NCBI GenBank assembly: GCA_030657355.1
Contig: CP131056.1
Span: forward strand, 2,314,501-2,378,500
Reading direction: 5' to 3'
From: Radicibacter daui
GTDB taxonomy: Bacteria; Pseudomonadota; Alphaproteobacteria; Radicibacterales; Radicibacteraceae
DNA: 64,000 bases
Positions 2,285 to 10,728 of this stretch are shown in pieces; the first letter of the stretch is position 1; each line of letters begins with the position of its first letter. The translations under genes were made by a program, and so were the position numbers. Below the pieces are notes generated by a model, which saw only the letters and a list, made by a program, of their open reading frames with translations, did not search any database and was not told the DNA's origin.

Positions 2285-4093
2285 TCAGGCGGCTTCCCGG
2301 GCCACCAGATGGCGGGCGCCGATATCTTCCAGCTCGGCATAGACCGGCTGATAATCGAGCCCGTGAACCGGGCTTGGAATTTCCCCTTCCATCCGCACGA
2401 AACTCTCGCGCTTGCGGGCCGGGTCGGCAATCGGCACCGCCTCGATCAGGCGGCGGGTATAGCTGTGGCGCGGATCGTCAAACACCTGGGCACGTGTGCC
2501 TGTCTCCACGATCTGGCCCAGATACATCACAGCCACCCGGTGGCTGATCTGCTCCACCACCGCCATGTCATGCGAGATGAAGAGATAGGAAAGCCCCATC
2601 TCGTCCTGCAATTCCTGCAGAAGATCGAGCACGCGGGCCTGCACGCTGACATCGAGCGCCGAGACGCTTTCATCCGCCACGATGACCCTGGGCGACAGCG
2701 ACAGCGCCCGGGCAATGCAGATGCGCTGGCGCTGGCCGCCGGAAAATTCATGCGGGTGGCGGTGCATATGGTCGCGATCAAGCCCCACGCGGCTGAAAAG
2801 CCATGCCACGCGATCTTCAAGCTCGCTGCCGGACGCAAGGCCATGGATGGTCAGCGGTTCGCCCACCAGATCGCCTACCGTCATGCGAGGGTCGAGCGAG
2901 GCGTAAGGGTCCTGGAAGATCATCTGGATATCGCGCCGCACCGGACGCAATTGGGCCCGGCTGAGGCCGCCGAGCGGCGTGCCGGCCACCAGCACATCGC
3001 CGGTAAAGGGCAAGAGGCCCATCAGCGCGCGGCCGGTCGTGGATTTTCCGCAGCCGGACTCTCCCACCAGCGCTAGCGTTTCGCCCGGCTTCAGGCTGAA
3101 GGAGATTTTCTCCACCGCATGGACGCGCCGCACGACCCGCTGCAACAGCCCGCCATGAATATCGAAACGCACCGTAAGGTTATTGACCTCCACCACCGGA
3201 CGCACCGGCACCGGCGTCGGTTTGATATCGGCAACCGGCGCCGGGGCGGCTGAAGCGCGCATCGGCCCTTCCGAACCCTTGAGCGCACCGAGTTTGGGCA
3301 CGGCGGCCAGCAATTCGCGGGTATAGGGCTGCTTCGGCGCGGTGAAAATCTGGCCGACAGGCCCCTGCTCCACCACCTTACCGTGGTTCATCACGATCAC
3401 GCGGTCCGCCATTTCGGCAACCACGCCCATATCGTGGGTGATGAGGATAACGGCGGTGCCGCGCTCGCGCTGCAGGTCGCGGATGAGTTCAAGGATCTGC
3501 GCCTGCACGGTGACGTCCAGCGCCGTCGTCGGCTCATCGGCAATCAGGACGCGCGGGTTAAGTGCCAGCGCCATGGCGATCATCACGCGCTGGCGCATGC
3601 CGCCGGAAAGTTCGTGCGGATATTGTTTCAGCCGGCGCTCCGGCTCGGAAATGCGCACTTGTTCCAGCGCGGCCACAACTGCTTTTTTAAGCGCGCTGCC
3701 GGTAAGCGTGCGGTGGGCCTGCAGCGCTTCGCCCAGCTGGCGGCCAATCGTCAGCACCGGGTTCAGCGAAGTCATCGGCTCCTGGAAGATCATGGCGATG
3801 TCGTTGCCGCGCAGGCGGCGCATCTCGCCTTCCGTCAGAGAGGCCAGATCACGCTCGCCGAAGAGAATTTCGCCGCCGCCAATGCGGGCCATGGGCTCGG
3901 GCAGCAACCGCATAACGGAAAGCGCGGTCATGCTTTTGCCGGAGCCGCTCTCACCGGCGATGCAGATGGTCTCGCCGGCATGAAGGTCAAAGCTGAGGCC
4001 TTCCACCACCGCCCGTGCGCCGGCGGGTGTTGCCACCTGCACCTTGAGGTCGCGCACGCTGAGGACGGTTTCGGCTGCTTTGATCGCGCTCAT
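2285..4093 (-). CDS. Double-length peptide-type ABC transporter ATPase (DppD-DppF fusion)
   Basis: A 602-residue protein carrying two complete ABC ATPase domains in tandem, equivalent to separate DppD and DppF subunits and laid out like GsiA. First domain (about residues 8-250): Walker A GESGSGKS, signature LSGGMRQRVMIAMAL, Walker B VLIADEPTTALD. Second domain (about 300-560): Walker A GESGCGKS, signature FSGGQRQRICIARAL, Walker B VIVADESVSALD, where Pro of the usual DEPTS is replaced by Ser. A Pro/Ala-rich linker at about 270-300 joins them. The last gene of the ami/dpp cluster, 80 bases after the formamidase gene. ATG 4093 is chosen over an in-frame TTG nine bases upstream. It would energise the DppB/DppC permeases encoded at 6.9-8.7 kb. 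Confidence 0.93.
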   Translation of the reverse strand: MSAIKAAETVLSVRDLKVQVATPAGARAVVEGLSFDLHAGETICIAGESGSGKSMTALSVMRLLPEPMARIGGGEILFGERDLASLTEGEMRRLRGNDIAMIFQEPMTSLNPVLTIGRQLGEALQAHRTLTGSALKKAVVAALEQVRISEPERRLKQYPHELSGGMRQRVMIAMALALNPRVLIADEPTTALDVTVQAQILELIRDLQRERGTAVILITHDMGVVAEMADRVIVMNHGKVVEQGPVGQIFTAPKQPYTRELLAAVPKLGALKGSEGPMRASAAPAPVADIKPTPVPVRPVVEVNNLTVRFDIHGGLLQRVVRRVHAVEKISFSLKPGETLALVGESGCGKSTTGRALMGLLPFTGDVLVAGTPLGGLSRAQLRPVRRDIQMIFQDPYASLDPRMTVGDLVGEPLTIHGLASGSELEDRVAWLFSRVGLDRDHMHRHPHEFSGGQRQRICIARALSLSPRVIVADESVSALDVSVQARVLDLLQELQDEMGLSYLFISHDMAVVEQISHRVAVMYLGQIVETGTRAQVFDDPRHSYTRRLIEAVPIADPARKRESFVRMEGEIPSPVHGLDYQPVYAELEDIGARHLVAREAA

Positions 4094-4173
4094 GACTGGC
4101 AATTCCGGCTTTGAAGATGAAGGTCGCCGTTGCCAGGGCTGTGAGAACCCGGCAACGGCGAAAATTCCGGCGC

Positions 4174-5118
4174 TTATTCGAAAACGGAGCGCGGGAAATA
4201 GAAGGAGACCACCCAGTTCGGCATGTCGACGATCTCGGAAATCCTGAGATCACCGCACACCGAGCAGAGCATGTAGGCCTCGACGGCAGACATGCCGTGC
4301 GTGGCGGTCAGCAGATCCACCATGCCGGAGACCGCCATGCGGGCCCCTTCCATGAGGTCGGGGCCGATGCCGGTCGTCACCTCATAACCCTTGGTGTCGA
4401 GGTGACGGGTTACCGGGCCGGGCGTGGTGAAGCGCGGCATCCTGAGATTGGCGCCCTTCACCAGATCGAGGCTGGCCACGACATTCATCGGGCTTTCAAT
4501 CGCGGTGCCGCACACCTCGCCATCCCCTTGCGCGGCGTGCGTATCCCCCACGGAGAACAGGGCCCCCGCCACCTCTACCGGCAGGTAAAGGGTGGTGCCG
4601 GCAGCAAGGTCGCGGATATCGAGATTGCCGCCCACCCGGCGCGGCGGCACCACGCTGTGGTGACCGGGCTCGGCCGGGGCTACGCCGATGGTGCCGGCAA
4701 AGGGCTTGAGCGGCACGCGGCCGTTCTTGCCAAAAGCCGCAGGCGCCAGGCTCTGCTTGTCATAGGCCCAGATGTTGAGCGCGTTTTCCTTGAACTGGTC
4801 CGCCAGCAGGCCGAAGCCCGGAATGTTGGCGGTCCAGCCGAAACCGGAGGGCTTGAACTCGTGGATGGTGACCTTGAGCGCGTCGCCGGGCTCGGCCCCT
4901 TCCACGAAGATCGGCCCCGTCACCGGGTTGATCTTGCCGAAATCGAGTGCGCCGACATCGCCAACCTGGCTCTCCGGCGTCAACTGGCCGCCGGAGCTGT
5001 CGAGGCACTCGAATTCGATGGTGCTGCCGGGCGCGACCGTCATCGCGGGCGGGATCGAATGATCCCACCCGAAATGATGATGGCGTCCGTGGATGGTGTA
5101 ATTGCAGTTATTGCACAT
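4174..5118 (-). CDS. Formamidase/acetamidase (FmdA/AmdA family)
   Basis: A 314-residue hydrolase of the acetamidase/formamidase family, which releases ammonia from short aliphatic amides. Family hallmarks are the early AMTVAPGSTIEFECLD block, FVEGAEPGDALKVTI, the conserved GDTHAAQGDGEVCGTAIE segment (about residues 190-207) and the late SAVEAYMLCSVCGDLRISEIVD. No signal peptide, so cytoplasmic. Its ATG overlaps the end of the substrate-binding-protein gene by 11 bases, so the two are translationally linked, and the dual ATPase gene follows. This context says that the imported solute, or a product of it, carries a hydrolysable amide. The exact substrate cannot be read from sequence. Confidence 0.93.
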   Translation of the reverse strand: MCNNCNYTIHGRHHHFGWDHSIPPAMTVAPGSTIEFECLDSSGGQLTPESQVGDVGALDFGKINPVTGPIFVEGAEPGDALKVTIHEFKPSGFGWTANIPGFGLLADQFKENALNIWAYDKQSLAPAAFGKNGRVPLKPFAGTIGVAPAEPGHHSVVPPRRVGGNLDIRDLAAGTTLYLPVEVAGALFSVGDTHAAQGDGEVCGTAIESPMNVVASLDLVKGANLRMPRFTTPGPVTRHLDTKGYEVTTGIGPDLMEGARMAVSGMVDLLTATHGMSAVEAYMLCSVCGDLRISEIVDMPNWVVSFYFPRSVFE

Positions 5119-10560: not shown

Positions 10561-10611
10561 AACGACGGGGCGCAATTGCCGCCCGGCGATCAAGGCCGGT
10601 ATTTGACCGTA

Positions 10612-10639
10612 ACGTTAAGGGCCATGACGGTGCTGTCAA
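10612..10639 (-). promoter_or_regulatory. Candidate sigma70 promoter of the ami/dpp operon
   Basis: On the minus strand, TTGACA (10639-10634) is followed after 16 bases by TAACGT (10617-10612). Transcription would start near 10605, giving a leader of about 157 bases before the GTG of the AmiC-like gene, with the attenuator inside it. The -35 is perfect, the -10 weak. Confidence 0.55.
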
Positions 10640-10728
10640 GGCCGAATTTGCTCAAGTGATAGGCTCTTCGATCTCGCGACCTTATTTGCCTAAATTTTAA
10701 GCAGCAGTTACAAGGCAGCCATGAATGG

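Follow-up and report, generated by a model that had tools for sequence, protein, structure and literature searches.

The window analysed here, a stretch of 64,000 nucleotides from Radicibacter daui, carries a run of seven genes on its minus strand (2285-10502), transcribed in the order amiC-amiR-dppC-dppB-dppA-fmdA-dppDF and preceded by a leader (10639-10506) with a promoter-like element, two small hairpins and an intrinsic terminator. The source genome of the operon comprises 5.06 Mb in two contigs. The genes encode an AmiC-like sensor, an AmiR-type antiterminator, a family-5 ATP-binding cassette (ABC) importer and an enzyme of the acetamidase/formamidase family, and we read them as one operon that is probably controlled by antitermination in its leader. 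The proposed control is best supported by this leader, which an earlier annotation of this DNA (the original prediction) did not mention, though its range ended at 10640.

Every product exceeds the cut-off of its Pfam family. The genes are closely packed. amiC and amiR share one base (9285), amiR and dppC overlap by 23 bases, given a dppC start at ATG 8687, and dppA and fmdA overlap by 11 bases (5108-5118). dppB starts 2 bases past dppC, and gaps of 104 and 80 bases lie between dppB and dppA and between fmdA and the ATG of the ATPase gene at 4093. The contiguous minus-strand run, its order and the three overlaps had been given exactly by the original prediction. For amiC, a start at GTG 10448 is more likely than one at TTG 10502, the GTG being preceded by a ribosome-site-like stretch recognized by eye. 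The importer shows the hallmarks of the family-5 (peptide/nickel/opine) type, namely an SBP_bac_5 protein, whose N-terminus looks by eye like a signal peptide, two permeases, and ATPases with oligo_HPY. The binding protein scores below the DppA equivalog (224.8, cut-off 1005) and the GsiB equivalog (244.5, cut-off 594).

Table 1. Genes of the operon and elements of its leader, in window coordinates
Feature	Position	Strand	Evidence and remarks
amiC	9285..10448	-	Peripla_BP_5 376 bits (cut-off 27); PDB 1PEA AmiC E 6.7e-59; open reading frame opens at TTG 10502
amiR, ANTAR RNA-binding antiterminator	8665..9285	-	Pfam AmiR_N 43.8 (cut-off 27) and ANTAR 36.8 (cut-off 27.3); PDB 1QO0 AmiR E 1.5e-11
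dppC-type permease (ATG 8687)	7779..8687	-	BPD_transp_1, OppC_N (Pfam)
dppB-type permease	6856..7776	-	BPD_transp_1 (Pfam)
dppA-type family-5 solute-binding protein	5108..6751	-	SBP_bac_5 365 bits; 8UPI match E 1.1e-290, 78% identical
fmdA-like acetamidase/formamidase-family enzyme, 314 amino acids	4174..5118	-	FmdA_AmdA (PF03069) 206.3 bits (cut-off 27); PDB 3TKK, 2II1
dppDF fused double ATPase (ATG 4093)	2285..4093	-	two ABC_tran stretches and oligo_HPY (Pfam)
TTGACA, -35-like	10634..10639	-	with TAACGT, -10-like, at 10612-10617; spacer 16; sequence
P1 hairpin CCGGC-CUUGAUC-GCCGG, 7-base loop	10583..10599	-	fold of leader up to P2
P2 hairpin GGC-AAUUGC-GCC, hexaloop with A at 1, U at 4, G at 5	10569..10580	-	candidate AmiR site/antiterminator
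Intrinsic terminator with U-run 10511-10506	10506..10571	-	fold; stem covariation; model R1 match

Folding of the leader gives two alternative structures. RNA ending at P2 folds into P1 and P2; when the leader is longer, the fold is that of the terminator. The triplet GCC at 10571-10569 is common to the 3' arm of P2 and the 5' arm of the terminator, so that the terminator would be unable to form when P2 is held. A consensus scan for sigma-70 promoters and terminators listed neither the leader promoter nor the long terminator, both of which were recognized by visual inspection and comparison. Rfam gave no leader match at its gathering thresholds, and the sub-threshold matches had E values of 3.7-4.9.

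We compared the leaders of 36 loci, the window and 35 relatives. The P2 pattern GGCAN5GCC lies upstream of amiC in 34 of them and is absent in L049 and L050; the pattern fixes GGC-A and GCC, so the A at loop position 1 (A1) was imposed, except in leaders added later. By itself the pattern is common, with 66 matches on both strands of the window and 0.34 per kb in the loci, and therefore its position and its overlap with the terminator carry the weight. A stem that precedes a U-run and overlaps the 3' arm of the pattern is present in the window and in 32/36 loci altogether; besides the two loci lacking the pattern, L024 and L051 fail, L024 having one visible by eye. The overlap test accepted stems of at least 4 pairs (G-U allowed) beginning 6-14 bases into the pattern and had no shuffled control, and its count includes weaker overlaps, for example the 4 pairs of L021.

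Covariation was examined in alignment A6, which holds 32 leaders; L027, nearly identical to L025, and L049-L051 were excluded. In the terminator stem 89.1% of cells are paired (79.5% in shuffles), 40 cells are double-changed (15.2 in shuffles) and the covariation score is 0.437 (0.258 in shuffles), with 0/500 shuffles as high, while controls in which the stem was slid pair in 42-52% of cells. The number of terminator pairs with a double change is 6, against 5.0 in shuffles, and 146/500 shuffles match it. The P2 stem is invariant in the A6 rows and hence no evidence by itself. When L049, L089, L081 and L082 were added (36 rows, 34 distinct), its three pairs were kept in 36/36, with one compensatory and one one-sided change, which 12/500 shuffles reach; versions slid by +1 to +3 pair in 49-67% of cells. 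Variation of the P2 stem is thus weak support for the hairpin.

The promoter-like element recurs as well. A TTGAC starts 43-60 bases 5' of P2 in 24/32 leaders, one of which has another at 71, compared with a mean of 1.25 and a maximum of 5/32 in 300 shuffles. For P1, the best hairpin of 21/31 relatives has at least 4 pairs, ends at most 4 bases from P2 and has a loop of 3-7 bases, and two more are weak (L032, L036). Several relatives are without a clear P1, and in the window itself the comparison script put a different, overlapping hairpin first.

A leader model, R1, was built from A6, with the window leader included in its training. In its own genome the window leader ranks first (E 2.5e-4) among five matches at E <= 1. 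The second match (0.027) falls some 20 bases beyond the end of an open reading frame of 373 amino acids and is likely a gene-end terminator; the other three have E values of 0.32-0.78, the fourth-ranked lying inside coding sequence, and the genome scan with R1 thus gave no convincing second regulon site. Across 385 genomes of the class, source included, R1 gave 5 matches at E <= 0.01. The operon is present in three of these genomes (the source genome G000, G001 and G153), whereas the match in G004 falls in a genome without an AmiR match, and the operon-bearing G300 was not recovered. In G378 (L086, about 1898-1952, minus strand) an R1 match stands between an AmiR that is 26% identical and a second AmiC-like gene; it is possibly a related attenuator, which may follow the sensor pair.

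The seven-gene order is conserved beyond R. daui. Apart from a Pseudomonas locus, which came from a search with the binding protein, the loci were collected with AmiR or AmiC as query and are thus biased towards loci with them; the 95 other genomes drawn as relatives have only the class in common with the source. An AmiR scan of GTDB contigs gave 18 loci, in which the named relatives bear alphaproteobacterial names, and tblastn with the window proteins recovered the full order in 16 of them. The exceptions are L024, which ends at a contig edge inside dppB, and L033, where amiC-amiR is followed by a different family-5 system. On plasmids, 11 of 13 loci hand-picked from 130 AmiR records have the full order, and the other two, L045 and L048, resemble L033; these three sister operons have a related AmiC and AmiR, a leader with P2 and terminator, and a more distant family-5 importer. 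The full order is also found on a Raoultella plasmid (L049) and on a Pseudomonas canadensis plasmid. Such a gene order is not due to chance, because it is conserved across genera. In Sinorhizobium meliloti Ak57 (L040, 8001-8593) amiR matches in two frames, unannotated, and the gene is possibly broken.

Among the 385 class genomes, FmdA has a match at E <= 1e-100 in 22 and AmiR at E <= 1e-10 in 13. Where AmiR is at least 48% identical (G000, G001, G153 and G300), FmdA lies within about 4 kb in 4/4; for the nine remaining AmiR matches the identity is 26-36%. The original prediction had named a lack of joint conservation of sensor pair and transporter as its refutation, and the comparison did not refute it. 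Of 24 listed FmdA matches, 17 loci were compared, leaving out those in G000, G001, G230, G273, G339 and G350 and one of three in G162. Two of them have amiCR and the importer (L081, L082), L074 has distant importer genes next to it, and ten, some on short contigs, are without adjoining importer genes of this type. In 72,556 plasmid records, the enzyme occurs in 871 at an identity of at least 60% (887 at E <= 1e-60) and the binding protein in 858 (860 at E <= 1e-150), both mostly in Klebsiella. Counts for enzyme and binding protein are 731/728 in Klebsiella, 71/67 in Rhizobium and 12/12 in Raoultella, a close similarity at the level of overall counts for the genera listed.

Other features of the window lie in or near the operon. 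Between fmdA and the ATPase gene (4160-4125, minus strand) there is an inverted repeat, CGCCGTTGCC...GGCAACGGCG, possibly an mRNA-processing or attenuating stem. Just upstream of the operon and on the same strand (10729-11496, minus), a gene encodes an isochorismatase-family hydrolase, with sub-cut-off matches to biuret hydrolase and RutB models. We excluded this gene from the operon unit because it had no tblastn match above 35 bits in the other loci examined. Elsewhere on the plus strand, genes for a solute-binding protein and for two inosine-uridine nucleoside hydrolases (40844-41860, 44579-45523 and 49003-50016) suggest a nucleoside uptake region.

In published descriptions, the target of an ANTAR protein consists of a pair of hexaloops with A1 and a G at position 4 (G4), the second of which overlaps the terminator (PMC3369931). 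According to a structure study, one hexaloop is the minimal binding unit, G4 is obligatory, and Tyr164 of EutV stacks on it (PMC8934654). Like the EutV/eut dual-hexaloop attenuators as these two papers describe them, the window leader has a hexaloop hairpin overlapping an intrinsic terminator; unlike them, it has one hexaloop, with A1 and without G4, and its P1 is no hexaloop. A1 is present in 32/32 leaders and in 36/36 of the enlarged set, while G4 is present in 1/32, or 3/36 once two gammaproteobacterial plasmid leaders are added; position 5 is G in 24/32. Of the two added leaders, that of Raoultella (CAGGU-AAUGAA-GCCUG) has a canonical loop with A1 and G4 on a 5-pair stem, and that of the Pseudomonas plasmid likewise has AAUGAA on 5 pairs. 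The P1 loops of relatives vary. Judged from its sequence, the window leader would work like an ANTAR attenuator and fall outside the dual-hexaloop motif, as a variant of it.

Together, the data point to an autoregulated, amide-inducible nitrogen-scavenging operon under leader antitermination, a reading to which we give a probability of about 0.75. Transcription would start near 10604. Without inducer, the RNA would fold into the terminator at 10571-10506 and transcription would stop before amiC, with leakage past the terminator supplying some AmiC and AmiR. By analogy with the known pair, AmiC would hold AmiR in the cytosol. A primary amide entering the cell would bind AmiC and free AmiR, which would then hold the P2 hairpin at 10580-10569. 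With P2 held, the terminator, whose anatomy is seen in the leader, would be blocked and the operon read, so that sensor, importer and enzyme would rise together. The family-5 importer would take up a small amide or an amide-bearing amino-acid-like compound, and the FmdA_AmdA enzyme would cut the amide to carboxylate and ammonia.

Several points weigh against this reading. The importer occurs without a tblastn match to amiCR in 4 of the 17 FmdA loci (L070, L076, L077 and L085; L076 starts 1.3 kb before dppC), and in Skermanella the importer and amidase core is likewise without amiCR, with a nitronate monooxygenase upstream. The amide switch is therefore an exchangeable controller module and not an obligate part. 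The original claim that it governs family-5 uptake is partly supported by the single operon, its conserved order and the ANTAR-style attenuator, and is qualified by the core that exists on its own. The covariation in P2 comes from one row, and slid versions of the stem score higher (0.143 to 0.229, against 0.059). With G4 missing and P1 no hexaloop, the sequence does not guarantee that AmiR would bind P2. Moreover, in the column aligned with EutV Tyr164, which holds Tyr, Phe or Trp in 32/32 readable relatives (L033 and L035 are unreadable there and L040 is outside that alignment), the AmiR of the window carries Leu, and it could be weak for this reason; the AmiR of P. aeruginosa has His in the aligned column. 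On the substrate side, the acetamidase activity of a Klebsiella relative is given in section 3.3 of PMC13209695 with neither an uninduced control nor a knockout, and a high-affinity peptide-type importer would be an odd route for acetamide. A coupled loss of the aromatic residue of AmiR and of G4 in the loop was considered and rejected, as relatives without G4 still have the aromatic residue.

What the operon takes up is the point on which a first alternative differs. In this version, which starts from the original prediction, the importer would bring in a larger solute, amide-bearing or peptide-like, that would yield formamide or another such amide for a formamidase to cut. The importer does belong to the peptide family, and an alpha/beta hydrolase, suited to hydrolysing a larger compound, follows amiR in L033 and L048, the two sister loci scanned. 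However, no enzyme that would release formamide is obvious among the operon genes. As to the formamidase itself, membership in the FmdA_AmdA family is clear, but the NCBI formamidase equivalog NF045496 is not reached (127.7 bits, cut-off 500), which leaves the name a family-level guess. Structure matches of the enzyme are 3TKK and 2II1, named acetamidase/formamidase and acetamidase, and with 70-83% identity to 15 relatives it belongs to a tight family.

The nearest solved relative of the binding protein also speaks for a smaller ligand. 8UPI is a periplasmic peptide binding protein of Mesorhizobium sp. AP09, titled 'bound to aminoserine', a title that suggests a small ligand for the importer; we take 'aminoserine' as possibly meaning serine amide. 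Operon orthologues of the binding protein are 63-79% identical to that of the window, and 8UPI falls within this range, so by identity it is probably an orthologue too. A predicted model of the binding protein, of middling quality (mean predicted local distance difference test score, pLDDT, 61), was used solely to get the titles of solved relatives. A Klebsiella strain whose sole acetamidase gene lies in this operon type is described as showing acetamidase activity in lysates after growth with acetamide (PMC13209695), and disruption of an archaeal acetamidase/formamidase-family gene is described as abolishing growth on acetamide (PMC5052560). We therefore consider the release of formamide from a larger solute unlikely. 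By analogy with these relatives, a small primary amide, possibly resembling an amino acid, would be the substrate, and acetamide the best-supported compound for a test.

Some further genes stand near this enzyme family. In genomes without the operon, the selected open reading frames scanned near FmdA (PfkB, GNAT, EamA, arginase-family and others) gave no consistent substrate hint. In L077 (G162), a locus without amiCR, the gene immediately ahead of dppCBA-fmdA (7839-8954, minus strand) belongs to the arginase family. Creatininase-family fragments come after the operon in Raoultella, and the source genome has two more adjacent FmdA_AmdA-type stretches elsewhere (G000, C2:498485-501792).

A second alternative concerns the leader. 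The hairpin and U-run could merely end transcription coming from upstream, with AmiR acting elsewhere or not at all, perhaps defective in this strain. The isochorismatase-family gene on the same strand could provide such upstream transcription, and the lack of an aromatic residue in the window AmiR and of G4 in the loop agrees with an inactive regulator. Yet the terminator adjoins amiC and overlaps the stem of an A1 hexaloop in 32/36 loci, the annotated upstream gene is a different one in each of nine annotated full-order plasmid loci, a promoter-like element stands 5' of the terminator in 24/32, and the R1 scan of the genome yields no further convincing site. We hold this explanation to be quite improbable and retain leader antitermination.

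AmiC bears on what is sensed. Its best structural matches are the solved AmiC structures 1PEA and 1QO0, with 8TG1 close behind and UrtA structures after it. The protein opens straight with the mature domain, and by eye has no signal peptide, from which a cytosolic location is probable. Mutation of Trp120, Gln144 or Asn246 of UrtA is described as sharply lowering or abolishing urea binding (PMC10392092). At these columns the window AmiC has Ile, Pro and Ile, and P. aeruginosa AmiC also has Pro at the Gln144 column. UrtA Ser122, Tyr141, Glu146 and Tyr190 are retained, among them the Ser and Tyr that bind the ligand oxygen in UrtA. Since three of the urea-site residues are replaced, with Pro as in AmiC, the predicted pocket favours a mono-amide over urea. 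Sensing of urea or some other ligand of the UrtA type, with the operon belonging to urea nitrogen metabolism, is very unlikely. In its favour, AmiC scores 235.1 bits on the UrtA model TIGR03407, and relatives of the sensor pair lie within a urease cluster in Aminobacter (L050) and, in Rhizobium WL3 (L051), ahead of urt-like genes, an FmdA_AmdA gene and a carbon-nitrogen hydrolase gene. Against it, the score is below the 492.75 cut-off, the three UrtA residues are changed, and the seven genes include no urease or urea carboxylase.

The column of Thr106 in P. aeruginosa AmiC (Asn in 1QNL) holds Cys in the window; among the remaining aligned sensors, those from FmdA operons have Cys, Thr, Leu, Val or Ala there, and those of L033, L045 and L048 have Phe. 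The side chain of the sensor ligand may thus differ with operon type, the three Phe cases being related to one another.

The P. aeruginosa amiE/amiC/amiR operon resembles that of the window in its AmiC and AmiR homologues and in antitermination in a hexaloop leader. Its enzyme is a nitrilase-family amidase, amiE comes first, and to our knowledge it has no family-5 importer. Its leader is described with two A1/G4 hexaloops (PMC3369931), against the single hexaloop of the window. The fmdA and urt genes of P. veronii, as described in PMC13209695, and of Rhizobium sp. WL3 likewise set an amide enzyme beside an importer, in WL3 with amiC-amiR first, but the importer is of the UrtA/branched-chain type and not of family 5.

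The closest known system is the acetamidase operon on a plasmid of Klebsiella sp. KOS9, described in 2026 as amiE, amiC, amiR and four 'cluster 5' ABC genes in about 8 kb (PMC13209695), with Raoultella among the genera listed as matching it. Judged from this description, and with the Raoultella plasmid locus L049 as a stand-in, it has the same seven gene families as the window. L049 has the gene order of the window and an enzyme 70% identical to that of the window, and differs by its canonical A1/G4 leader loop. Section 3.3 of PMC13209695, which describes the KOS9 operon, mentions no leader element. Among the matches listed in the open-access literature, there was this one description of the operon type and none of the leader or of the operon in Alphaproteobacteria. 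The operon type is thus already published, from a Klebsiella plasmid, while its occurrence across Alphaproteobacteria and a leader with one hexaloop that lacks G4 appear to be new. Possible, though doubtful, is a fuller proposal: a minimal one-hexaloop class of ANTAR attenuators with a shifted code (A1 and usually G5) across Alphaproteobacteria, controlling an importer-amidase module whose natural substrate would be an amino-acid amide or a similar amide-bearing amino-acid analogue and not acetamide or formamide.

With this analysis, what had been a series of overlapping genes becomes an RNA switch of about 100 bases that can be tested. It occurs in rhizobia and roseobacters and, in a form with the canonical loop, on a Raoultella and a Pseudomonas plasmid. 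Natural G4-less loops, found with otherwise conserved ANTAR regulators, could probe whether G4 and two hexaloops are obligatory. The operon also offers a way to learn what is carried by an importer that is widespread but annotated in generic terms.

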